DNA from: Streptomyces rapamycinicus NRRL 5491
Lineage (GTDB): Bacteria; Actinomycetota; Actinomycetes; Streptomycetales; Streptomycetaceae
DNA length: 64,000 nt
Reading direction: 5' to 3'
NCBI RefSeq assembly: GCF_024298965.1
Contig: NZ_CP085193.1
Location: 12,338,001 to 12,402,000 of the forward strand
Shown one piece after another: positions 31,485-45,697 of the stretch. Made by a program: the position numbers and the translations under genes. Below the pieces are notes generated by a model. That model ran no database searches and had not been told where the DNA came from. It saw nothing but the letters and a program-made list of their open reading frames with translations. The stretch's first letter is position 1. Every line of letters begins with the position of its first letter.

Positions 31485-32180
31485 GTGCACCTCGACCACC
31501 CCGTGACCATGCCGCAGCGCCACACCCACAGTGCCGGGCCGCTCCGCGCCGAGGGCAGCCGCCGAGCCCTCCGTGTCGGTCTGGGCGGGCCCGTCGGCTC
31601 CGGGAAGACTGCCAGCGTCGCCGCGCTCTGCCGCACCCTGCGCGACCGCTGGGCGATGGCCGTCGTCACCAATGACATCTACACCCGCGAGGACGCCGAG
31701 TACCTGCTGCGCGAGGCCGTGCTGCCGCCCGAGCGGATCACCGCGGTGGAGACCGGCGCGTGCCCGCACACCGCGATCCGCGACGACATCTCCGCCAATC
31801 TGGAGGCGGTCGAACACCTGGAGCAGACGCTTAATCCCCTCGACCTCGTGCTGGTCGAGTCCGGTGGCGACAACCTCACCGCCACCTTCTCCAAGGGCCT
31901 CGTCGATGTGCAGATCTTCGTCATCGACGTCTCCAGCGGCGACGACATCCCCCGCAAGGGCGGCCCCGGCATCACCATCGCCGACCTCCTCCTCGTCAAC
32001 AAAACCGACCTCGCCCCGCACGTAGGCGCCGACCTCACCACCATGGCCGCCGACGCCAAGCGGCAACGCGGCGACCTCCCCGTCATCTTCACCAGCCTCA
32101 CCTCCGACGACGGCATCCGTGAGGTCGCAGACTGGGTCACCGCCCACCTCACCGAGTGGCACGCCAAGGCGGCCGTATGA
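31485..32180 (+). CDS. ureG: Urease accessory GTPase UreG
   Basis: 231 residues. P-loop GGPVGSGKT, switch residues in [15 protein letters not shown], the metal-binding CPH motif ([12 protein letters not shown]), the [13 protein letters not shown] segment and the NKTD guanine-specificity motif are all present. It provides GTP-driven nickel delivery to apo-urease. GTG 31485 follows TGGAG by 6 bases and gives the usual VHLDHP start; an ATG at 31509 is too short. A short His-containing N-terminus is the only extra nickel site, which may matter because no UreE metallochaperone is encoded. The stop overlaps the ureD ATG by 4 bases. Confidence 0.95.
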
Positions 32181-33025
32181 GCCCCGCCGCACAATTCGCC
32201 GAACACCGGGCAGCGTTGACCGGAGCCCCCTCCGGCCTCGACGAGCCCGCCGGGCACCCGGACGGGGTGCGGGCCACGGCCCGCATCCACGCCACCTACA
32301 ACGGACGCGTCACCACGCTTTCCCAGCTGCGCAGTGACGGCCCGTTCCACCTCCGGCGCATGCGCACCAACGGGAACTCCGCCAGGGTGGGGATCATCGG
32401 TGCGATGAGCGCCCCCCTCGGCGGCGACCGGCTCACCATCGGCGTCACCGCCGGGGACCGGGCCGTGCTGGAGGTCACGACGGCTGCTGCCACGCTCGCC
32501 CTGCGCGGCCCCACCAGCGCCCCGGCCAGCTACGACGTAAGGCTCACCGCCGGGGAACACACGAGCCTGCGCTGGCTGCCCCAGCCGCTGATCAGCGCCG
32601 CCGGCAGTAACCTCCGGCAGACCTATACCGTCAACCTCGCCGCCACCGCCCGGCTGTTGCTCCGGGAGGAGCAGCTCCTGGGCCGGGCCAACGAGGAACC
32701 GGGTCACCTCGTCAGCCGACTCCTGGTCCACCGTGCCGGAAGACCGCTGCTCGTCCAGCGGACGGCATACGGGGCCCCAGAGCCCGGCTGGGACGGCCCG
32801 GCCGTCTTGCACGGACACCGCGCCGTCGGCCAACTCCTGCTCGTCGACCCGGAGATGGGAATCCGCCGCGGCCCCGTCCTCCTCGGCGAGGACTCCCGGG
32901 ACGGGTGCGCCGTCCTCGCACCGCTGGCCGGCGGCCCGGCACTGCTCGCCACCGCCGTCGCACCAACTTCCTCGGGCCTGCGGGAACTGCTCGACGAGGC
33001 CCTCGTACACGCCCTCCACAAGTAA
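32177..33025 (+). CDS. ureD: Urease accessory protein UreD/UreH
   Basis: 282 residues, predominantly beta. Recognisable patterns are [36 protein letters not shown] and the C-terminal end. UreD binds the apo-urease trimer and recruits UreF-UreG for nickel insertion. ATG 32177 overlaps the ureG stop (ATGA), which favours it over GTG 32156. It is the last gene of the operon: a hairpin follows 10 bases after the stop. The gene order AB-C-F-G-D is the usual actinomycete one. Confidence 0.88.
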
Positions 33026-33263: not shown

Positions 33264-34195
33264 GTGACCGTGCCTGTCAACGACCTGGGCATCTCCTCCC
33301 CGGGCCGGATCCACCCGCGGGTCGACCAGATCGGCTCGGGATTGGACGTGTGGGCCGTGCGAACCGGTCCGGCAGGGGGTGCGGCCCAGCGCGCACGCCT
33401 GCGCGCAGCCGGCTTCCACCGCATGGCAGCCCGCATGATCCCCGACGCTCCCGCCGCGGACGTGGAACGGCTGGCCCAGTGGATCACCTGCTCTTCCACC
33501 TCGACGACGAGCAGGACGAAGGCCCCATGGGCCGCTCCGAGACGGCGGTAAGCGACACGTACGCGGCGCTCACCGCCGTCATCGAGGGCCGCCCGCCGCA
33601 TACCCACCGAGCGTCGCCTTCTGTCCTCACCGCGGTGGCCGGCCTGTGGCCCGCCACCGCATTCGGGATGTCACACCGACATCGCTTCCGCGACCACCTC
33701 CACCGGCACCGGGACGCCTTCCCGACCCAGATCGCGCACCGCGGCCACGGCGCATGGACCAACGAGCTGCTGTCCCTCCCACGGGAGGCAGCGGCGGGGG
33801 AGACCACGAACTACGTCATCGTCCTGAAGCATGCGGCAGACTGCGGCCTTGAGGCCGCCGTACGGCAGGTGACCGACCGCATGCAGCGCCGGCGTCGCAG
33901 ATGGCCACCGCACGCCGCGGGCCGCACCACGTCACCAGGACTCCGCGCCCCTCCACCCGGGCTTGTGTCGCCCAGGTCGCCCACACGATCTGCACCATGC
34001 CCGGCACCCACCTCGCCTGGCTCCAGGAATCCGGCCGCTATCCGCCGCCCCTGGCCGACGCTGATCCTCTGCGCTTCGACTGCGCAACCCGCCGGTACGC
34101 CACCTCCTTCCACCCCGCGGCCCGCCCACGAACCCCAGCCCCATACGAATACCAGCAGCCGAATGTGCCCGACCGACGAGAGCAATTGTCAAGAC
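33264..34195 (+). pseudogene. Class I terpene synthase, two frameshifts
   Basis: Three segments in three frames reproduce one bacterial terpene cyclase. From GTG 33264: the N-terminal part up to RMIPDAPAADVERLAQWIT. A base is lost near 33488, then LFHLDDEQDEGPMGRS carries the aspartate-rich metal motif DDxxD. The same frame gives WTNELLSLPREAAAGE, the NSE metal triad (N-x3-S-x3-E). Near 33898 the frame changes again to CVAQVAHTICTMPGTHLAWLQESGRY, the usual C-terminal helix. All metal ligands survive, so inactivation looks recent or may reflect sequencing errors. No prenyltransferase or P450 gene is adjacent; product unknown. Confidence 0.85.
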
Positions 34196-35205
34196 CTGTG
34201 GATGGGAGCCGCGCCGACCCATTGGTGGTAGGCGTCTACGTCGACGTTGCTGCCGCACACGATGGTGACGACGTGTCGGTCGGCGAAGCGGTCACGGTCT
34301 TCGAGGATGGCCGCGATGCCGAGCGCGGCCGACGGTTCGACGACGAGGCCGGCGTGGTCGAGGAGCATCCGCATACCGGCGATGATCGACGCTTCCTGGA
34401 CCAGGACGGCGTCGTCAGCGACCAGGAGGAGGTCGTCCAGGACGGCCGGGATGGGACACCGGCCGGCGACGCCGTCGGCGATCGTATTGGTCGAGTCGGT
34501 GGTGACGACGCGCCGCTGGCGCCACGAGTGTGTCAGCGCCGGTGCCCCCAGCGGCTGGACGCAGATCACCTCGACTTCGGGTGCCAATGCCTTCACCACA
34601 TGGCCCACGCCGGTGGCCAGCGCACCGCCGCCGAGAGCGATCAGGACGGTGTCGAACGACGGTGCGGTGTCCACCAGTTCCAGGCCGATGGTCGCCGCGC
34701 CCTCGCAGGTTTCGATGTCCAGGCTGTCTTCGACCAGCCGGATGCCGTCGTACCTCGCGATGGCCGCCGCCCGCTCGCGAGCCATCTCGTGGTCGCCGTC
34801 CACCAGCTCCAGCCTGGCGCCCAGTGCGCGGATGCGATCAAGCTTGGCCCGAGTCGCAAAGCGGGATGCCACGACGGTGACGTCGAGCCCCCGGCCGCGG
34901 CCGGACCAGGCGAGGGCTTGGCCGAGGTTGCCCGCGCTGGCGCACACCGCGGCTCGCGGGCCATTGTCGGCGAGCAGGCGCGCGACTACCTCGGTGCCGC
35001 GGGCCTTGAAGCTGCGGACTGGGTTCGCGGTTTCGAGCTTGATGCTCACCGTGCACCCAAGGCCGGGCTCCAGCGCCTCGCAGCGGTACAGCGGAGTGTC
35101 GAGAAAGACCGGGTCGATCACCCGGCGAGCCGCCCGGATCCGAGCAGTGTCGAGACGCGTCTCCTGCACAGCACAGCAGCCTAGCGCCACCGGGCGCCGG
35201 TCCAT
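34189..35205 (-). CDS. PLP-dependent threonine/serine dehydratase-like enzyme
   Basis: 338 residues of fold type II. The PLP Lys is in SFKARG, the phosphate-binding loop in GGGALATG and the amino-acid contact in SAGNLGQALAW. It is the size of catabolic threonine dehydratase without a regulatory ACT domain; related proteins include serine racemase and ectoine-type EutB dehydratases. ATG 35205 was kept, but GTG 35169 (VQETRLD) would match the usual N-terminal length better. It is convergent with the terpene synthase pseudogene and ends over its last bases. No obvious operon; the IS256 element lies upstream. Confidence 0.82.
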   Translation of the reverse strand: MDRRPVALGCCAVQETRLDTARIRAARRVIDPVFLDTPLYRCEALEPGLGCTVSIKLETANPVRSFKARGTEVVARLLADNGPRAAVCASAGNLGQALAWSGRGRGLDVTVVASRFATRAKLDRIRALGARLELVDGDHEMARERAAAIARYDGIRLVEDSLDIETCEGAATIGLELVDTAPSFDTVLIALGGGALATGVGHVVKALAPEVEVICVQPLGAPALTHSWRQRRVVTTDSTNTIADGVAGRCPIPAVLDDLLLVADDAVLVQEASIIAGMRMLLDHAGLVVEPSAALGIAAILEDRDRFADRHVVTIVCGSNVDVDAYHQWVGAAPIHRS

Positions 35206-35242
35206 GAGCAACTGTCAGGAGTTGCAGGCCGGTTGAGGTGTG

Positions 35243-36399
35243 TCACGCTGCGGCGGGCTCCTCGGGATGTTCGACGAGGTGACCGTTCTCGAAGCGGGCC
35301 CCGTTGCGGACGAGGGCGACGAGGTGGGGTGCGGTGACCGCGCGCCAGCGGCCCTGGGCGGACTCGACAAGCTTGAACACCATCGCGAGGGCCGCTGCAG
35401 GGCTGCCGGCCCCACGGGTGACCTTGGTCCTCAACTTCACGGTGCTGAAGGTGCTCTCGATGGGATTTGTCGTGCGCAGGTGCACCCAGTGCTCGGCAGG
35501 AAAGTCGTAGAAAGCGAGGAGCTCGTCAACCTCGTCGGTGACCTTCCTGGCCGCTTTCGGCCACTTCGCTCCGTAGGCGCGCTCGAAGCCCTTGATCGCC
35601 TTCTCCGCGTGGTCGCGGTCCTCGGCGTTGTAGATCTCCTGCAGGGCCTTCTTCGCTCCGGGTTGAGCCGACTTCGGTAGCGCGTTCATGACATTGCGGG
35701 TTGTGGACCCAGCACCTCTGATGCCTGGCCTGCGGAAACACCTCTGCGAGGGCCCTCCACAGGTCCATCGCGCCGTCGCCGACGACGAGTTCGGCCGTCG
35801 GGGCGCACACCCATCAGGACCAGGACGCAGGAGTGGGCCTGGCCGAGGCGGACCTTGGGGTGGACGCCGTCGGCCCACACGTAGACGTAGTCGGAATCCG
35901 ACAGGTCGCGGGCCTGGAAGGCGGTGTGGTCGTCGGTCCTATGCTTCGTCAGCCGGGTCACCGTCGCCGGTGAGAGGCCGGCCGTCGAGCCCAGGAACTG
36001 CTCCACGGCGGGCACGAAATTCCCGGACGACAGTCCGTGGAGGTAGAGCAGGGGCAAGACCTCGCTGATCTTCGGGGACTTGCGGCACCACGGCGCGAGG
36101 ATCTTCGACGAGAACCGCTTGCGCTCACCGGTCTCCACGTCGACGCGCTTGTCGTTCACGCGGGGCGCCTTCACCGCGACCGGCCCGGCGGCGGTGGTCA
36201 CCGCCCGTTCGCGATGATGGCCGTTGCGGACCACCAGACGACGGCCGACCTCGTCCCGCTCACCGGCCAACTCAGCTATGTACTGGTTGACTTCGGCCTC
36301 CATGGCCGCAGTGAGCATCCGCCGGGCGCCCTCGCGGACGATGTCGTCCATCAGGGATCCGGTCTCGGTGGTTCCGTCGTTGTTGACTACGCTGAGCAT
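35243..36399 (-). pseudogene. IS256-family (mutator-type) transposase, frameshifted
   Basis: From ATG 36399: MDDIVREGARRMLTAAMEAE, KAPRVNDKRVD, LYLHGLSSGNFVPAVEQFLG and YVYVWADGVHPKVRLG (first catalytic Asp region) are IS256 hallmarks. The frame breaks near 35800 (VGDGAMDLWRALAEVFPQARHQRCWVHN lies in another frame) and again near 35690, where the C-terminal half (ALQEIYNAEDRDHAEKAI, HLRTTNPIESTFSTVKLRT) resumes. The DDE residues all appear across the three frames but no single product is possible. Terminal repeats were not found by eye, so element ends are open. Confidence 0.9.
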
Positions 36400-36487
36400 G
36401 GGCGTGCCTTCCCAACCCGTGCTGCAACGCGGGTCTACTCGGTGACCGCCTGCACGGATGCCGCAGCTTCGATCGAGATCCGTTCCG

Positions 36488-37186
36488 CTACGAGCTGGAT
36501 GGCAGTAGTCCGCGGGCCAGGGTGAAGGCGGCCGTAGCGGTGGACAGGAGGGCGTTGATCCTTCCGAGGACGCGAGCCGTCCTGTCGGCATCCTGCGCCT
36601 CGACGGCCGCGGCCAGGTCGTCGGCGTACTCCCGCGCCCTTACCGCCTCGTCGGACGTCGCGGTGTCCGCGTCCGTGCGCAGGGCGTCGATCAGTTGCTG
36701 GTGGGGAATGTCAGGCGCGTTCGCCCGGTTGCCGTAGCCTCCGTGGGCCACCGAGTGATGGCTGTTGACGTTGGCCACGACGAAGCCGCCCGGTCCGGTG
36801 GAGATGTGCACCCCTTCGCCTCCTGTCCAGATGAACTTGCCCTCGTACTCGGTCCAGCCCTTGTGCGTCACGCTATAGCTGCCGAACCGCCAGCCCTCCA
36901 CAACGATCATTTTGTGCTTGAGCAGCTCGGCCAGGATGCGCATGACGTCTGCCCGATTCCATCCTCGCTCGGCGAAGTAGTCGGTCATCATCACGCGCCG
37001 CCCCGAGTGCGCCGCCCGTCGGCACATCTCGCGGAATGCCTGCCCCTGATAGATTTCCAACTTGCCCGGGGCGACCGACGGCTCCGGCAGCCGCCGCCGG
37101 TGCACGACTGTGCGGATCCATACGAACAGTGCGTAGACCAACCAGCAGATCAAGGCGATCACAATCAGCACCGGTGTCGGCTCCAC
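36488..37186 (-). CDS. Hypothetical single-pass membrane protein
   Basis: 232 residues. One N-terminal TM segment (VLIVIALICWLVYALFVWI) is followed by basic residues, then a winged-helix-like soluble part (YFAERGWNRADVMRILAELLKHKMIVVEGW) and a helical acidic C-terminus. GTG 37186 has GGGAGG 9 bases upstream; the frame extends to 37222 without a better start. I do not recognise a family. The TAG stop at 36488 lies about 90 bases before the IS256 transposase start, so the gene's own 3' end may have been altered by the insertion. Function unknown. Confidence 0.7.
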   Translation of the reverse strand: MEPTPVLIVIALICWLVYALFVWIRTVVHRRRLPEPSVAPGKLEIYQGQAFREMCRRAAHSGRRVMMTDYFAERGWNRADVMRILAELLKHKMIVVEGWRFGSYSVTHKGWTEYEGKFIWTGGEGVHISTGPGGFVVANVNSHHSVAHGGYGNRANAPDIPHQQLIDALRTDADTATSDEAVRAREYADDLAAAVEAQDADRTARVLGRINALLSTATAAFTLARGLLPSSS

Positions 37187-37921: not shown

Positions 37922-38830
37922 CTACATGAGAATGTCATCACCGATCTGCTCGATCAGGTGCGCGAGGAAGGCCCGCACCGCCGCGGGCAATGCGCGCCGC
38001 GCCATCGATTGGATCTGCATGCTCCGGCGGCTCAGTTCCGGGTTGTGGATGGGAACGATCGCCAGGCGGTCTGCATCGAGCCGCCGCCGCACCGTCAGCG
38101 GACCGACCAGGGTGACCCCACCGCGTAGCTGCGCGAAACTCTGTAGCGCACCCGAGTAGTTGCTGACGAGTGCGGGCTCGAAGCTCAGCCCCTCCAGCGC
38201 GACGCAGACGTCGAAGAGTTGCCGGATCGTGGTTCCCTCGTCCATCAGCGCGAGCGGGTACTCCAGCAGGTCCGCGAGCTCGACGTACTCCCGGTGCGCC
38301 AGCGGATGATCGTCGGGCATCAGCGCGTAGATCGGCTGCTGCTGCGAATACTCGACCTTGATTCCCCATTCCGGTCCGAGGCTATAAGTGACGGCCAGGT
38401 CCACCGTGCCGTCTATCACCTGCCGCGTCGCCGCGGTGGGGCCGGTGACATTCAGTCGGAACCGCACCCCCGGATATTTTTCCCGAAATGCGGTGATAGC
38501 CGCCGGCAGGAAATCGCGCGCGAAACCCTCGGAGCTCGCGAGTTTGACGGTACTGCGGTGCAGGGCCTGGACGCCGTGCACGTCGGCGAGCACCTGCTCG
38601 GCCTCGAGCGCGCTGCGCCGGGCGTAGGCGGTGAGAATCTCGCCCGCCTCCGACAGCACCATCCCCCGCGGCTGGCGCTCGAACAGCGGCGCCCCGACGT
38701 CCTGCTCCAGCTTCGCGATCTGCCGACTGATCGCCGACGTCGCCACGTGCAGGCGCTCCGAGGCCTCGCTGATCGAACCGGTGCGCGCGACCTCGAGGAA
38801 GTAGCGCAGCGACGTGGGCAGGAGGTGCAT
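37922..38830 (-). CDS. LysR-family transcriptional regulator of the ACC deaminase operon
   Basis: 302 residues. The N-terminal helix-turn-helix spans about residues 5-65 (YFLEVARTGSISEASERLHV, then TSAISRQIAKLEQDVGAPLF), followed by the LysR substrate-binding domain (DGTVDLAVTYSLGPEW, MDEGTTIRQLFD). It resembles the NAC/CynR group in general form. ATG 38830 is the family start. The gene is divergent from the M20-MHS-acdS operon across 200 bases that contain a 13-bp inverted repeat. LysR regulators usually activate such a divergent operon with a pathway metabolite, so this is probably the operon's inducer-responsive activator. Known acdS regulators are mostly Lrp-type, making this arrangement different. 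Confidence 0.9.
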   Translation of the reverse strand: MHLLPTSLRYFLEVARTGSISEASERLHVATSAISRQIAKLEQDVGAPLFERQPRGMVLSEAGEILTAYARRSALEAEQVLADVHGVQALHRSTVKLASSEGFARDFLPAAITAFREKYPGVRFRLNVTGPTAATRQVIDGTVDLAVTYSLGPEWGIKVEYSQQQPIYALMPDDHPLAHREYVELADLLEYPLALMDEGTTIRQLFDVCVALEGLSFEPALVSNYSGALQSFAQLRGGVTLVGPLTVRRRLDADRLAIVPIHNPELSRRSMQIQSMARRALPAAVRAFLAHLIEQIGDDILM

Positions 38831-38927
38831 TCCGAGAATGTACTCCAGTGCGAAGCGCGTCCGCTGAGGGTGGTGGTGGGGAAGCCGCCGACCGTAGCCG
38901 TTGCCGCCAGGGCAATACACCCTTCGA

Positions 38928-39013
38928 AAACGTGCAATTTCCCGCTCTATCGCCGCCCTATCCCGCTCCGTAAACTCAGCACACCGGCCGGACGCATTGT
39001 AAATCGCACGTTT
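38928..39013. promoter_or_regulatory. Inverted repeat in LysR/M20 divergent promoter region
   Basis: AAACGTGCAATTT (38928-38940) and AAATCGCACGTTT (39001-39013) are complementary at 12 of 13 positions, separated by 60 bases. The second copy overlaps the likely promoter/5' end of the M20 gene. Candidate binding sites for the divergent LysR regulator. Confidence 0.45.
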
Positions 39014-39031
39014 CTCATGTTAAGGGTAATG

Positions 39032-40423
39032 ATGACCCGTGCTGCCGTGATCGATTGCGCCACCGAATACTACGATTCCGGGGAATTCCTCGCCGACCTC
39101 GGCCGCCGGGTCGCGTTCGCGACCGAAAGCCAGGACCGGGCCGGGGCGCGGACGCTGCGTTCCTACCTCACCGACGAGCTGGCCCCTGCGCTCACCGGCC
39201 GGCTGGGCTGCGAGGCACGCGTCCTCGACAACCCCGCCGGCGACTACCCGCTGCTCGTGGCGACCCGGCACGAGGGCGATGAGATGCCGACGGTGCTGGT
39301 CTACGGCCACGGCGACGTCGTCCTCGGCGAGCCGGAGCGGTGGCGGCCCGGCCTCGATCCGTGGCAGGTCGTGGTCGAGGGCGACCGCTGGTACGGCCGC
39401 GGCACCGCCGACAACAAGGGCCAGCACACCATCAACTTCGCGGCACTCGAGCAAGTGCTCCGCGTGCGCGGTCGGCTCGGCTTCAACCTCAAGGTGCTGG
39501 TCGAGACCGGGGAGGAGTCCGGCTCGCCGGGCCTGCGCACGGTCTGCGCCCAGTTGCGGGACGAGCTCGCCGCCGACGTGCTGATCGCGTCCGACGGGCC
39601 GCGCGTGGCCGCGGAGCGGCCGACACTGTTCCTCGGTTCACGCGGCTCCACCCCGTTCACGCTGCGGGTCGACCTGCGTGAGGGCTCCTACCACTCCGGC
39701 AACTGGGGCGGTCTGCTGCGCAACCCGGCGACCGTGCTGGGGGCGGCGCTCGCCTCCATCGTCGACGCGCGGGGCCGCATTCTCGTCTCCGGTCTGCGGC
39801 CGCGGGAGGTCCCCGAGAACGTCCGGGAAGCCCTGCGCGACATCGCGGTCGGCGGCGGACCGGACGATCCGCCCGTCGACGACGGCTGGGGCGAACCCGG
39901 TCTCACCCCGGCCGAGCGCCTCGTCGGCTGGAACAGCGTCGAGGTGCTCTCGCTCGCCGCCGGCAACCCGGACACCCCGGTCAACGCCATTCCCGGCAGC
40001 GCCCACGCGCACTGCCAGCTCCGGTCCGTGGTCGGCACCGACGTCGACAAGCTCGGCGTCATCCTCCGTACCCACCTGGACGACCACGGATTTCCCATGG
40101 TCGACGTCGAGGTCGGCCCGACCATGCCGCCGACCCGGACCGATCCGGACGACCCCTGGGTGCACTGGGCGCTCGGCTCGATCAGCAGCACCACCGGCGC
40201 GGAACCGGCGCTGCTGCCGAACCTCGGCGGCAGCCTTCCCAACGACGCCTTCGCAGGCGCGCTCGGGTTGTGCACGCTCTGGATCCCGCACTCCTACCCC
40301 GCCTGCGCTCAGCACGCCCCGGACGAGCACCTGCTGGCCCCGGTGGCGCGGGAGAGCCTGCGCATCATGGCCGGCCTGTTCTGGGACCTCGGCGAGGACT
40401 CTCCCGTGAGGAGTCACCCATGA
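39032..40423 (+). CDS. M20-family metallohydrolase (peptidase/amidohydrolase)
   Basis: 463 residues with the M20 dinuclear zinc site: VYGHGDVV (first His, catalytic Asp), GRGTADNKGQH (bridging Asp), VETGEESGSPGL (catalytic Glu and ligand Glu), ASDGP (ligand Asp) and a C-terminal HSYPACAQHAPDEH (ligand His). A dimerisation domain lies between about 190 and 330. It hydrolyses an amide or peptide bond. ATG 39032 is 5 bases after AAGGG; ATG 39029 is an alternative. The stop overlaps the MHS carrier ATG by 4 bases. In front of acdS it may release ACC from a conjugate such as malonyl- or glutamyl-ACC; that is inference from position alone. Confidence 0.88.
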   Translation: MTRAAVIDCATEYYDSGEFLADLGRRVAFATESQDRAGARTLRSYLTDELAPALTGRLGCEARVLDNPAGDYPLLVATRHEGDEMPTVLVYGHGDVVLGEPERWRPGLDPWQVVVEGDRWYGRGTADNKGQHTINFAALEQVLRVRGRLGFNLKVLVETGEESGSPGLRTVCAQLRDELAADVLIASDGPRVAAERPTLFLGSRGSTPFTLRVDLREGSYHSGNWGGLLRNPATVLGAALASIVDARGRILVSGLRPREVPENVREALRDIAVGGGPDDPPVDDGWGEPGLTPAERLVGWNSVEVLSLAAGNPDTPVNAIPGSAHAHCQLRSVVGTDVDKLGVILRTHLDDHGFPMVDVEVGPTMPPTRTDPDDPWVHWALGSISSTTGAEPALLPNLGGSLPNDAFAGALGLCTLWIPHSYPACAQHAPDEHLLAPVARESLRIMAGLFWDLGEDSPVRSHP

Positions 40424-41697
40424 CCACACGGACCGTAGCCCCCGAAGCACCACCGGTGAAGGTGCACCGCGTCATCGTCGCCGCGTCCATCGGGAACGCG
40501 CTGGAATGGTTCGACATCCTCGTCTACGGCTTCTTCGCCGCGACGATCTCGGAACAGTTCTTCCCCACCGCCGACGAGACCGTGTCGCTGCTGCTGACGC
40601 TCGGCACGTTCGCGGTGGCCTATGTGGTCCGTCCGCTGGGGGCACTCGTGCTCGGCGCGTATGCCGACCGTGCTGGGCGCAAGCGTGCGCTCATGGTGTC
40701 GATCCGGCTCATGATGGTCGCGACGCTGCTCATCGCGGTCATGCCGCCGTACGCGACGATCGGGCTCGTCGCACCGATCGCGATCCTGATCGCCCGGCTC
40801 CTCCAGGGCTTCTCCGCGGGCGGGGAGTTCGGCAGCGCCACCGCGTTCCTCATCGAGCACAGGCCCGAGAAGCGCGGCTTCATGGCCAGCTGGCAGTTCG
40901 CGAGCCAGGGCTTCGCGACGCTGCTCGCGTCGGCGTTCGGCACGGTGCTCACGGCCACGCTGTCCGACGCGCAGCTGGAGTCGTGGGGTTGGCGCATCCC
41001 GTTCTTCTTCGGTCTGCTGATCGGCCCGGTCGGCTACTACATCCGGCGTTACGTCGGCGAGGCCGGTGAGTTCGTCAAGACCGCGGACCAGGAGCGCGCG
41101 CCGGTGAAGGAGACGTTCCGTACCCAGAAGGACCGCATGTTCGTGGCCATGGGCGCGCTCGCCGTGTCCACCGCGATCAGCTACTTCATCACCTACATGC
41201 CCACGTTCGCGGTGAAGGAACTGGACCTGCCGGCGTCGACCGGATTCGCCTCCACTCTGGTCACCGGGATCGTGCTGACCGGCCTGACTCCCGTGGTGGG
41301 TCACCTGTCGGACCGGTTCGGCCGCACCCGGATCATGCTGATCTTCGCGGCGCTGATCCTCGCACTGGTGTACCCGAGCCTCGCGTTCCTGGTCGCCGCC
41401 CCGGGCTTCGGGGTGATACTCGGCGTGATGTTCCTGGTCGGCGTGTTGAAGGCCGGTTACTTCGCCCCACTGCCCGCGATGATGGCGGAGCTGTTCCCCA
41501 TCACCAACCGGGCCACCGGCCTGGCGGTGAGCTACAACATCGCCGTGATGCTGTTCGGCGGCACCACACCGCTGATCATCGTCTGGCTCGTCGATGTGAC
41601 CGGCAGCAAGCTCGCGCCGACCTTCTACCTGATGTTCCTGGCCGTACTCAGCCTGTCCTGCGTGGCGTTCGCGCGGCGCAGGCTCGACATCCACTGA
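40420..41697 (+). CDS. MHS-family MFS symporter in ACC deaminase operon
   Basis: 425 residues, 12 [23 protein letters not shown] (in part), the [13 protein letters not shown] loop and [15 protein letters not shown] place it in the metabolite:H+ symporter family. ATG 40420 overlaps the M20 stop by 4 bases, and acdS begins 13 bases after its stop, so translation of all three is linked. It probably imports the operon's substrate, either ACC itself or the conjugate cleaved by the M20 enzyme. No MHS member with that substrate is known to me. Confidence 0.9.
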
Positions 41698-41710
41698 TCG
41701 GAGATATCCC

Positions 41711-42721
41711 TTGTCCCTCAACGACTTCGACCGCTACCCGCTGCTGTTCGGCCCGTCGCCGGTGCACCGCCTGGAGCGCCTGACCAAGCACCTGGGCGGC
41801 GCGGAGATCTGGGCCAAGCGCGAGGACTGCAACTCCGGCATCGCCTACGGCGGCAACAAGACCCGCAAGCTGGAGTACCTCGTCGCCGATGCCCTGGCGC
41901 AGGGCTGCGACACGCTCGTGTCGATCGGCGGCGTGCAGTCCAACCACACGCGCCAGGTCGCGGCGGTCGCGGCCCGGGCGGGGCTCAAGTGCGTGCTGAT
42001 CCAGGAAAGCTGGGTCGACTGGCCGGACGCGGTGTACGACAAGGTCGGCAACATCCTGCTGTCCCGGCTCGCCGGAGCGGACGTGCGGCTGGTGAAGGCG
42101 GGGTTCGGCATCGGGTTCAAGGAGAGCTGGGAGCAGGCGATCGCGGAGATCGAGGCAGCGGGCGGCAAGCCCTACGCGATCCCCGCCGGCGCCTCGGACC
42201 ACCGGCTCGGCGGGCTGGGCTTCGCGAACTGGGCGTTCGAGGTGGCGGAGCAGGAGCAGCAGCTCGGGGTCTTCTTCGACACCATCGTGGTGTGCTCGGT
42301 CACCGGCAGCACCCAGGCCGGCATGATCGCCGGATTCGCCGCGCTGGGCGGGCGGCCGCGGCGGATCCTCGGCATCGACGCCTCGGCCAAGCCGAAGGAG
42401 ACCTGGGACCAGGTGGCCCGGATCGCGCGCGGAACCGCGTCGCTCATCGGCCTGGACCGGGATCTCACCCACGACGAGATCCTGCTCGACGAGCGCTACC
42501 ACGCGGGCACCTACGGCATCCCGGACGACTCCACCATGGACGCGATGCGGCTGGCCGCACGGACCGATGGCATGATCACCGACCCGGTGTACGAGGGCAA
42601 GTCCATGGCGGGCCTCATCGACCTCGTCACCCGAGGCGAGATCGCCAAGGACGCCAAGGTGCTCTACGCCCACCTCGGCGGGCAGCCGGCACTGAACGGC
42701 TACAGCGCCCTGTTCGGGTAG
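41711..42721 (+). CDS. acdS: 1-aminocyclopropane-1-carboxylate (ACC) deaminase
   Basis: 336 residues, fold type II PLP enzyme. PLP Lys50 is in [11 protein letters not shown], and the pattern from [19 protein letters not shown] onward follows AcdS throughout. The residues that separate true ACC deaminases from D-cysteine desulfhydrase relatives are at canonical numbers: Tyr294-Glu295 (DPVYEGKS) and Leu322 (YAHLGG). It opens the cyclopropane ring to give 2-oxobutanoate and ammonia. The TTG start has GGAG 8 bases upstream. It is the last gene of the LysR-controlled operon. ACC deaminase lowers plant ethylene, so this suggests a plant-associated lifestyle. Confidence 0.95.
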
Positions 42722-42929
42722 GCGTCAACCGGAGAGCGTCGGTGAGGTCTACCCGTCCTCACGGCCCGCCCCGGGCGGAGATCGCGTGCCGGCAAGGCCT
42801 TTCGCGCGGTCAGGCGCCGAGCGTCGCCGCTCGGGACGCAAGCATGGCAAGAAGAACACGGCGAGGTGCCCTACCGCGATCCCTCGATACCTGGTGGCGA
42901 CTGACCGTGGCAGCGGGAAGGGGGGCCAG

Positions 42930-43393
42930 CCGCCGGGGCCGGGCTTCCGGGCCGCCGCGGTCGCCCACCGCTGCGACGGCACCACGGATGAGCTGAGGTG
43001 CGACCTCGCCGCGGCCTACCCGCCCGAAGCAGGGCTGACTCGCTGGCTTCGTACGTTCCGGCTCGTACGCGGCGCGGACGACGACGAGCGCATTGAGATC
43101 GGCGACGCCTGGGACTGCTCCGCCCCACCGGGCTCACTGGCGCTGCACCTCCTGGCCGGCGGGGATGTAGCCCTCGCGAACGGGGGCGGCCGGGCCGTCG
43201 TCAGCCCGTCGGCCGGGCACGTGGGCTGATCCTGGGCTGGGACGCCGTGGCGTTCACCGCCTCAGCGGAGACGATCCCGCTCCCCGACCTGGCCTTCACC
43301 CGCGTGTGGGGCCCGGCGATTCACCGGCTCATTCTCACCGCCCGCCGGTCCGCGACCGAGGGTGAGCACATGCTGACGGTGCGGCCGAATTCC
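42930..43393 (+). pseudogene. Heparinase II/III-like C-terminal fragment, frameshifted
   Basis: From about 42940 the frame gives HRCDGTTDELRCDLAAAYPPE, LTRWLRTFRLVRGADDDERIEI and DAWDCSAPPGSLALHLLAGG, the beta-sheet domain of heparinase II/III-family lyases. Near 43228 it must move to another frame to continue LGWDAVAFTASAETIPL and FTRVWGPAIHRLILTARRSA up to double stops at 43402. The catalytic N-terminal alpha/alpha toroid is missing. A relic of a polysaccharide lyase gene directly after acdS. Confidence 0.65.
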
Positions 43394-43632
43394 GGGCGGG
43401 TGTAGTAGTACTTGCCGCCCACGGGAGACGGAGGGCACGAACCGGCGGGCCAACCCACAATTGCTGGTCCCGCCGCAGTGAATAATGCGCCAAACGCAGG
43501 CTGACGGGTGCGACTGGGCAGCGTTTCCTGCGGGGTTGGGGCGTTGAGGACGAGACCCAGACCGGCAAGCTGGTCCTCCTGGCTGGTGCGTGGGCCGGCC
43601 CGCGACGTGCTCGCCCTGCTTGCAGCGTTGGG
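43394..43632. other. No supported gene
   Basis: About 240 bases between the heparinase remnant and the end of the hydratase operon. The segment QRFLRGWGVEDETQTGKLVL (near 43520-43580) might be coding remnant but matches nothing I recognise. No terminator was found for the minus-strand operon. Confidence 0.4.
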
Positions 43633-44397
43633 TCACCGGCAGCCCAGCTCTACTGAGCCGAGGCGATCGATGGTCGCGGTGACGACATCCCCGGGCCTGA
43701 CCGGGACGGCGGCGGTGAGTCCGCCGGAGAGCACGATCTGTCCGGCGGCCAGGCCTTCGTCCTCGGCGGCGAGCTGCCGGACGAGCCAGGCGACCGCGGC
43801 TGCCGGGTGGCCCAGCGACGCCGCTCCGGAGGCGGTCGCGACCACCTCACCGTTCTTCTCCAGGAGGACGCCCACCAGGCGCAGGTCGACCCCAGGCGTC
43901 GTGACCGGCACCCCGACGACGAACCGGCTCGCCGAGGTGTTGTCCGCGACAACGTCGGCCATGGTGAAGCCGTAGTCCACGAATCGGGAGTCGAGGACCT
44001 CGATACCGACGGCGACCCCCGACGACGCGGCGACGACATCGGTCGCGGTGATGTGCGGGCCTTCGAGGTCCCGACCCAGAGTGAATACGATCTCCGGCTC
44101 GCAGCGAGGCTGGATGAGCGCCGAGGTGTCCAGTGGCTCGCCGAGGTCCACTGCCCCCGTGGCCGGCAGGAAGCCGTAGATCGGGCTGTCCACTCCGACC
44201 TGGGCTTGCTTGGCACGTGAGGTGACGCCGAGCTTCCAGCCGGCGATCTGCCCGGTCGCGGACCGTAGCTCGCGCTGCACTCGGTAACCGGTGGGGATGT
44301 CGAGTTCGGGGAACTCGTCGGTCAGTTTGGTGATGGCGGTACGATCCGCAACGGCCTTGCTCAGCCGGGCGGCCAACTCGCTTACGTTCACGCTCAT
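43633..44397 (-). CDS. 2-oxopent-4-enoate hydratase / oxalocrotonate decarboxylase family
   Basis: 254 residues of the MhpD/XylJ fold (fumarylacetoacetase-like). Patterns are GYRVQRELRSATGQIAGWKLGVTS, RCEPEIVFTLGRDL (metal-binding E-x-E: EPEIVF), GIEVLDSRFVDYGF and LSGGLTAAVPVRPGD. It hydrates 2-oxopent-4-enoate or decarboxylates oxalocrotonate in the lower meta-cleavage pathway. ATG 44397 overlaps the stop of its paralogue by 4 bases. It is the last gene of the IclR-controlled operon. Which of the two paralogues is hydratase and which decarboxylase cannot be told by eye; the two normally form a complex. Confidence 0.88.
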   Translation of the reverse strand: MSVNVSELAARLSKAVADRTAITKLTDEFPELDIPTGYRVQRELRSATGQIAGWKLGVTSRAKQAQVGVDSPIYGFLPATGAVDLGEPLDTSALIQPRCEPEIVFTLGRDLEGPHITATDVVAASSGVAVGIEVLDSRFVDYGFTMADVVADNTSASRFVVGVPVTTPGVDLRLVGVLLEKNGEVVATASGAASLGHPAAAVAWLVRQLAAEDEGLAAGQIVLSGGLTAAVPVRPGDVVTATIDRLGSVELGCR

Positions 44398-45182
44398 GCG
44401 GTCCTCACCGTCACCGGGCCCAGCCGGTCGAACTCGGCCCGGAACACGTCGCCCGGGTTCATGGGAAGGGCCGCGTGCAGCGCGCCCGTCAGAATCAGGT
44501 GCCCGGGCTCCAGGGCAACCCCGTGCTCGCCCAGGGTGTTCGCCAGCCACGCGACGACGGCGACCGGGTCTCCCAGCGCGGCGGCGCCGGCGCCCGTGTC
44601 GACCAATTCGCCGTTGCGGGTCAGAACCATCCCGGTCAGCCGGGGATCCCAGCTGTTCGGACCGTCGCCGAGAGGCACGATGCGGCTCGAGGTGGCCATG
44701 GCGCCGTTCGACGCCAGGTCGGCGACGGTGTCGGCGAGTTTGATCCGCCAGTCCGCGATCCTGGAGTCGATGATCTCCATCCCGGCCACGGCACCCGCGA
44801 TGGCGGCCCGGGCCTGGGTGACGGTGACACCCGGGCCCTCGAGCCGGTCGCCCAGAATGAAGACGATCTCGGCCTCGACCTTGGGTGCCACGAACGCGTC
44901 GAGCGGGACCGCGTCCCCGTCGCGGTAGACGGTGGAGGCCAGAACCGGTCCGTAATCGGGAGTGTCGATGCCGAGCGCCTTCTGCATCGGGGCAGCGGTG
45001 AGCCCGACTTTGTGCCCCACGACCCGATCGCCGTCGGCGAGCAGGAGACGCACGAGCTCCTGCTGGATGGCGTAGCCGTCGTCCATGCCGAGACCGGGTT
45101 CGGCGTCGGTGAACGGCGGGATGGCGGTACGGGTGCGCCGGGCCTCGTAGAGAGCGTGGGCCTTGGCCGTCGTATCGGTCAT
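44394..45182 (-). CDS. 2-oxopent-4-enoate hydratase / oxalocrotonate decarboxylase family, paralogue
   Basis: 262 residues, same fold as the next gene: [41 protein letters not shown] (metal E-x-E), [12 protein letters not shown] and [15 protein letters not shown]. Decarboxylase (DmpH) and hydratase (DmpE) are known to form a physical and metabolic unit, which fits two overlapping genes here. ATG 45182 overlaps the stop of the DmpF/DmpG chimera by 4 bases. Confidence 0.88.
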
Positions 45183-45697
45183 GTGGTCTGCTCCTCGGCC
45201 AGCGCGATGTCGATGTCGATGATCATGTCCTCCTGGGTGTCGACGTAGCCGCGCTCGCCGCAGCGGCGCGCGATGGCGTGCGCGGGGACCTTGTACCGCT
45301 CGGCGTTCTGGTGACCGTGGTAACCGACCCAGGCCTCGTCACCGACCTCGGCGACCAGGGCCTCGAAGCGAGCGCGCGCGTCGTCCATGAGCAGAGCGCC
45401 GGCGGAGTCGGTGACGTACCGCGCCTGGCGGCCGGCGTCGATCATGATCGGGGCCTGCTTCGCCAGGTTCTCCGGGTCGGTCATGTGAGCCGTCATCAGG
45501 AACCCGGCAGTCTCCGTGCCCAGCTCCCGGGCCACGGCGAAATGCTGCGGGGAGACGTCGGCCTCGGTGCGGTGGGTGGCCTCCATCCCGGCGGTGTCCG
45601 GCGCGCGGACCGTGTCGCGGACTTGGGTTTCGGTGAAGGGCTCGGTGCCTATGTTCCCGGGGCCGACTATGGCCGCCGGGATCTTCTGCTGCCCCAT
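45179..45697 (-). pseudogene. Chimera: acetaldehyde dehydrogenase N-terminus joined to 4-hydroxy-2-oxovalerate aldolase pieces
   Basis: 172 codons in one open frame. Residues 1-19 ([19 protein letters not shown]) are the Rossmann start of acylating acetaldehyde dehydrogenase (DmpF/MhpF). From about 37 on the protein follows 4-hydroxy-2-oxovalerate aldolase (DmpG/MhpE): [44 protein letters not shown] and VGYHGHQN (metal-binding HxH, but Gly-His-Gln-Asn instead of Ala-His-Asn-Asn). It then jumps to the extreme C-terminus, [13 protein letters not shown] and QEDMIIDI. Most of DmpF and much of the aldolase barrel are deleted. Frame and ATGA overlap with the next gene are kept, perhaps for coupling. 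Activity is unlikely. Confidence 0.8.

Follow-up and report, generated by a model that had tools for sequence, protein, structure and literature searches.

1-Aminocyclopropane-1-carboxylate (ACC) deaminase, the product of acdS, converts ACC to ammonia and 2-oxobutyrate. No bacterial means of acting on plant ethylene is better known than this enzyme, which has usually been discussed for free ACC. According to one review, malonyl-ACC is five to ten times as abundant as ACC (PMC7820975), and the plant enzyme turning it back to ACC has been called unknown (PMC4227472). In the available text of Nascimento et al. 2014 (PMC4048297), acdS is apparently in an operon with MFS and M20 peptidase genes in Saccharopolyspora erythraea and Streptomyces hygroscopicus ATCC 53653; M20 genes lie near acdS in Brenneria, B. 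xenovorans, Dickeya and Pantoea At-9b, and LysR genes near acdS in several Proteobacteria. As far as that text goes, the locus is handled as a question of regulation, and no function is assigned to the M20 or MFS product. In the open-licence PubMed Central literature, neither a function for the M20 protein of an acdS locus nor a bacterial hydrolase of ACC conjugates was found. The window, i.e. the whole stretch of 64,000 nucleotides analysed here (12,338,001-12,402,000 of one 12,466,108-base contig of Streptomyces rapamycinicus NRRL 5491), hosts at 37922-42721 (gene coordinates are window positions) the same gene set as ATCC 53653. All four genes are open: a LysR-type regulator gene on the minus strand and, divergent from it on the plus strand, genes encoding an M20 metallohydrolase, a symporter resembling the metabolite:H+ symporters (MHS), and AcdS. 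Among named species, the M20 protein is closest to its counterparts in Streptomyces rhizosphaericus (95% identity) and in ATCC 53653, listed as S. himastatinicus (94%). The original prediction held the linkage of M20, carrier and acdS to be unique, a claim that falls because Nascimento et al. report the same gene order. The gene order is already known; what is new is the recurrence of one M20 subfamily beside acdS, and its likely purpose. The residue analysis, the variant with an ABC importer, the subfamily assignment and the counts given below all come from the present analysis.

The safest reading is that the cassette takes up a small amide or dipeptide and cleaves it; in its acdS-linked versions, the one in the window included, the amino acid set free would most likely be ACC. 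The operon could accordingly be pictured as a small catabolic unit for a plant-derived ACC-containing amide or dipeptide. The LysR protein would sense the substrate, and the proton symporter would bring it in; the M20 protein, a two-metal peptidase, would cut the amide bond and free ACC, as suggested by linkage and active-site residues, and AcdS, identified from its sequence, would degrade the freed ACC to ammonia and 2-oxobutyrate.

The partnership of M20 and acdS is not a peculiarity of the window. M20 proteins of the PRK07079 subfamily are encoded beside acdS in Actinomycetota and in alpha-, beta- and gammaproteobacteria, along with either an MHS carrier or a peptide ABC importer. GTDB species genomes were scanned using a subfamily alignment; of the genomes that provide the best 80 loci, 63 have acdS (40/50 and 23/30). 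In 12 of these loci the gene falls inside the flanks, which extend 10 kb at most, where genome sizes would predict 0.17; the 12 loci are not independent, since five are from Pseudomonas and two from Herbaspirillum, and make up seven genus-level groups altogether. On plasmids, acdS lies at most 7 kb from the M20 gene in 4/8 loci read. Among 198 Pseudomonadaceae, acdS was found in 14 genomes, the M20 gene in 12, and both genes in 10 (Fisher 3e-12). Sampling had been centred around one genome already known to have the pair; when it is excluded, 9 genomes with both remain (Fisher 4e-11). The two genes are 1.9-6.9 kb apart in all 10 double carriers. When linkage is mapped onto a tree of 105 M20 sequences, at least 13 changes are required, 10 of which are forced by well-supported branches; the AcdS tree requires 6 changes, 5 of them forced. 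The M20 tree speaks for repeated coupling, and not for its frequency, because some loci were picked for having both genes. The recurrent linkage therefore supports the notion of an ACC-releasing hydrolase, and on this point the original prediction, which tied the M20 enzyme to acdS, fits what is seen in Actinomycetota and proteobacteria.

Two architectures recur. The first, that of the window, includes LysR, M20 and MHS genes; the second LysR, a five-gene peptide ABC importer, M20, often a second M20 gene (M20b), and acdS with an Lrp regulator. Loci of the MHS type are 48, those of the ABC type 33, and 23 more have neither importer by the queries used. A LysR homologue resides within 6.5 kb of the M20 gene in all 48 MHS-type loci and in 25 of the 33 ABC-type loci, and is 39-58% identical where the window LysR is the best query. 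That the importer type varies, while LysR is mostly constant, supports an ACC conjugate as substrate. Proteobacterial acdR-acdS loci share AcdS with the window, and several are also linked to a PRK07079 M20 gene; the regulator there is Lrp, and the M20 gene is often part of the ABC-importer unit. In 18 ABC-type loci it is accompanied by the CPG2-like M20b, which carries Glu at the fourth metal ligand (read by eye). The two M20b proteins scanned are nearest to PRK07338 hydrolase and PRK06133 glutamate carboxypeptidase, under both cut-offs, and the one ABC binding protein scanned (locus L072) is nearest to the glutathione-binding GsiB, its 164 bits falling far short of the required 594. A 2-oxo acid dehydrogenase E1 of the homodimeric type, scoring over the cut-off of TIGR03186, is encoded beside acdS and M20 at L070:2000-4699 and L133:13992-16691. 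We take this enzyme to be MdeB-like in role, and a natural consumer of 2-oxobutyrate, and its location suggests local use of this product. A gamma-glutamyltransferase gene precedes M20 in plasmids of Salipiger and Palleronia, the Palleronia acdS being 29 kb off, and none is annotated in the Paroceanicella locus. The Salipiger plasmid cluster (L175:10250-25978) includes a peptide importer, gamma-glutamyltransferase, M20, a TauE-type exporter, D-serine ammonia-lyase, an amidase, RidA and acdS. Methyl-accepting chemotaxis proteins are encoded in or beside acdS-M20 loci at L104:6293-7870 and L070:9353-10993, and chemotaxis towards the substrate is possible.

The M20 gene of the window (39032-40423, plus strand) encodes a protein of 463 amino acids. 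Three ATGs could serve as start, of which that at 39032 alone is conserved in a relative (L194). The protein matches NCBIfam NF005478/PRK07079 with 739.8 bits (cut-off 330), the runner-up being PRK07907 (167.3 vs 300). The fold is carnosinase-2-like, and carnosinase-like structures rank first in Foldseek. The five metal ligands and the catalytic Glu (H93, D127, E161/E162, D188 and H428) are found in 45/45 family rows, as are R191 and R331, and the Arg for the C-terminal carboxylate is intact. Compared to M20 dipeptidases of the carnosinase-2/Dug1p type, the window protein features R191 and N397-L398; at those positions M and R-E are found in the streptomycete paralogues that could be read, M occupying position 191 in 17 of 17-18 usable rows. 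This comparison group had 26 rows, about 8 of which, read in a wrong frame, were disregarded as noise. Asp at the fourth metal ligand marks the dipeptidase class of M20 enzymes, Glu the aminoacylase class (PMC6271292). The residue in question is Asp (D188) in the window as in all family rows, and not the Glu of the aminoacylase/carboxypeptidase class that would be expected for malonyl-ACC, which points to a dipeptidase type rather than an aminoacylase. The original prediction had named malonyl-ACC along with gamma-glutamyl-ACC, and the ligand speaks against malonyl-ACC as leading substrate.

Asp ligand and carnosinase-like fold are better accommodated by gamma-glutamyl-ACC, or another ACC dipeptide, than by malonyl-ACC. 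By our own account of the chemistry, the free amine of gamma-glutamyl-ACC is as far from the scissile bond as that of homocarnosine. Because of this placement of the amine, and of an extra carboxylate that could be held by the invariant Arg191, gamma-glutamyl-ACC is favoured, and fits the active site best among the known plant conjugates. As to the physiological substrate of the operon, an ACC conjugate of whatever kind has close to an even chance. Taken singly, gamma-glutamyl-ACC is a tentative and rather unlikely choice, another ACC dipeptide or amide would be distinctly unlikely, and malonyl-ACC, as main substrate of the M20 enzyme, slightly more so.

The acdS gene (41711-42721, plus strand) has a TTG start. 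The product matches TIGR01274 with 560.5 bits, well over the cut-off of 392, and among Protein Data Bank sequences the nearest belongs to the ACC deaminase 1rqx (6 entries). Residues K50, Y294, E295 and L322 are present in the window protein and in 67/67 sequences compared, some of which are identical. E295 and L322 distinguish ACC deaminase from D-cysteine desulfhydrase (PMC4048297). The gene thus encodes, by model scores and residues, a bona fide ACC deaminase, as the original prediction maintained. A misnamed D-cysteine desulfhydrase (243.8 bits vs a cut-off of 429) and a D-cysteate lyase, CuyA (321.4 vs 450), were considered and dismissed, both being contradicted by the residues as well. 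Similarly, His79 cannot be taken as a mark of altered specificity, because 55 of the 67 AcdS share it. A recent acquisition of the gene from proteobacteria is not supported, as the protein groups with 27 streptomycete sequences (SH-aLRT 98); it is at most 85% identical to the streptomycete AcdS sampled. The canonical actinobacterial arrangement, acd-AR, in which acdS is accompanied by a GntR regulator, features the same AcdS family, but no homologue of M20 or carrier in the annotated loci, and in both streptomycete loci scanned (L167 and L170) the gene directly upstream of acdS encodes GntR.

The carrier gene (40420-41697, plus strand; 425 amino acids) starts within the end of the M20 gene, the two overlapping by the ATGA at 40420-40423, and is separated from acdS by 13 bases. 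The original prediction was correct about the 13-base gap, but mistook the overlap for a 4-base spacing. The best model for the carrier is TIGR00883, of MHS type (375.9 bits, cut-off 443.45), and the TcuC model gives 358.8 (vs 445); the protein is MHS-like, and not a certified MHS member. A terminator-like site inside the gene is unconvincing, as 1.7 are expected in the consensus scan. The LysR gene (37922-38830, minus strand) encodes a protein with LysR_substrate (PF03466, 130.5 bits) and HTH_1 (PF00126, 81.5 bits) domains. The original prediction set this regulator apart from the Lrp-type AcdR, and indeed no Lrp/AsnC gene adjoins acdS, whose neighbours are the MHS gene upstream and two Pfam-less open reading frames (ORFs) downstream, the divergent regulator being LysR; a LysR gene near acdS had, however, been reported in 2014 (PMC4048297). 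The sole inverted repeat in the interval 38820-39040 is formed by AAACGTGCAATTT (38928-38940) and AAATCGCACGTTT (39001-39013), 13-nt arms that are 92% complementary and 60 nt apart. The repeat falls in blocks conserved among the aligned relatives, and is a candidate operator (38928-39013). On the LysR strand, a site overlapping the right arm (39023-38996) matches the promoter consensus at 10/12 positions, where 0.2 such sites are expected in shuffles, and is possibly the LysR promoter.

The whole 4.8-kb block is matched at full length in 5 of 392 genomes of the genus, the host included, and the other four are 95-99% identical. One genome in many contigs (G976) matches in the acdS part, at 97%. 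In the 16 comparisons provided by four genes in those four genomes no stops were found, all genes are open, and dN/dS ranges from 0.12 to 0.40: the block is under purifying selection. The triad is therefore not confined to S. rapamycinicus, a possibility contemplated in the original prediction; besides residing in these four genomes, it is printed for Saccharopolyspora (PMC4048297).

Several observations weigh against an ACC conjugate as substrate. In nine of the 10 Pseudomonadaceae with linkage AcdS is divergent (481-492 bits, over cut-off), and these genomes resemble one lineage; for this reason our estimate has been lowered slightly, from an even chance to just below. The five divergent sequences read (L180-L183, L189) retain E295 and L322, and form one long-branched clade. 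Conversely, 9/10 genomes with an AcdS of this pseudomonad clade (480-492 bits), a putative deaminase, have the M20 gene nearby. Three of the four Pseudomonadaceae with a classical AcdS (>650 bits) lack a PRK07079 M20 gene. Within 249 Streptomycetaceae, acdS over cut-off was found in 34 genomes, the M20 gene in 4, and both in 2, a non-significant association (2/4 M20 carriers with acdS, p = 0.09), with linkage seen in the host genome only. The host itself has a second acdS at 11680709-11681704 (11.68 Mb; locus L166), of a different clade and 74% identical to that of the window, and its 18-kb locus has no PRK07079 M20, LysR or MHS homologue of the query set. The carrier, as said, is under the cut-off of its family. 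In 43 of the 48 MHS-type loci, acdS is missing from the flanks; it is missing genome-wide in 5/5 Pandoraea M20 carriers sampled, and, over cut-off, in the genus genomes G104, which has the cassette, and G146, where LysR and M20 stand at the end of a contig. The M20 subfamily is for these last reasons not ACC-specific everywhere. The same unlinked loci are what one would expect if LysR, M20 and MHS formed a cassette of general use, importing and cleaving small dipeptides or N-acyl amino acids, acdS being one of several alternative downstream amino-acid enzymes, and ACC being taken up free, or AcdS acting on D-amino acids such as D-serine. In many Paraburkholderia and Caballeronia loci, and often in Burkholderiaceae, a beta-lactamase-fold serine hydrolase (the L069 protein was scanned) comes after the cassette instead of acdS, in P. 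aromaticivorans the cassette is followed by an aminotransferase V, and in G104 and G178 by no further homologue of the query set. The Asp metal ligand, moreover, is typical of general dipeptidases. Yet the acdS couplings are above chance and have arisen repeatedly, and a mere passenger would differ among phyla; in two streptomycete acdS loci scanned, a GntR gene is present and M20 absent. A general cassette of this kind is on balance unlikely, and is the alternative to be taken most seriously.

Other explanations fare worse. The M20 protein could be a Cys-Gly or gamma-glutamyl dipeptidase engaged in glutathione use, with acdS in the vicinity since gamma-glutamyl compounds and ACC share plant exudates. 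We deem this improbable: the interval from LysR to acdS includes no gamma-glutamyltransferase, sulfur gene or peptide ABC importer, and the tie of the M20 protein with Dug1p is common to CN1, CN2 and Sso-CP2. Very improbable as substrate is a substituted ACC in amide linkage, either a coronatine-like conjugate of coronamic acid or an ACC-bearing microbial product, which the operon would detoxify or recycle. ACC deaminases accept some substituted ACCs, streptomycetes make coronafacoyl amides, and ILR1-like M20 enzymes cleave hormone-amino acid amides; but TIGR01891 is not among the 25 best NCBIfam matches of the M20 protein, which is therefore not of that amidohydrolase type, and no biosynthetic enzyme was found among the neighbours scanned (seven proteins, and eight short ORFs or fragments). 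Finally, three unrelated genes might be merely co-transcribed. Chromosome arms are variable, and the block would reside in one, being 85-90 kb from the contig end and near a split mutator-type transposase. This view is disfavoured to the point of being hardly credible by the ATGA overlap and the 13-nt gap, by the 95-99% conservation in four other genomes under purifying selection, and by the M20-acdS pair being found in other phyla, and printed for Saccharopolyspora (PMC4048297). The host genome (12.47 Mb) has 24 M20-domain matches, 23 over cut-off, and about 0.012 of those genes are expected by chance within 3 kb of a given acdS.

As to the surroundings of the operon, the transposase is represented by two overlapping minus-strand ORFs (35243-36591) corresponding to two halves of a mutator-family protein (PF00872 positions 17-194 and 258-377), and is probably an inactive element. 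A further nitrogen gene, encoding the urease accessory protein UreD (32156-33025; PF01774, 101 bits), is found about 5 kb from the LysR gene. A threonine-dehydratase-like PALP enzyme (34189-35211), under the cut-off of all 25 models shown and 2.7 kb from the LysR gene, is a possible additional source of 2-oxobutyrate. The ORFs downstream of acdS (42786-43229 and 43262-43636) have no Pfam match. Farther on, a DmpG-like aldolase (45179-45697) is cut to 172 amino acids, and carries a DmpG_comm domain and an HMGL domain from profile position 112 only; the adjoining meta-cleavage block may be degraded.

An operon opening conjugated ACC would provide a candidate gene for the reaction from conjugate to ACC in bacteria, testable in Streptomyces and Pseudomonas. 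In its most specific form, which we regard as speculative and rather unlikely, the hypothesis is that acdS-linked PRK07079 M20 proteins are dedicated gamma-glutamyl-ACC hydrolases and, together with the Glu-type M20b of the ABC loci, attack malonyl-ACC too. If this were true, bacteria of two phyla and several classes, among which known plant-growth promoters, would tap the inactive ACC stored by plants through a complete route made up of importer, hydrolase and AcdS, and in some loci of a 2-oxo acid dehydrogenase as well. Bacteria would thus exert an extra point of control in ethylene homeostasis.

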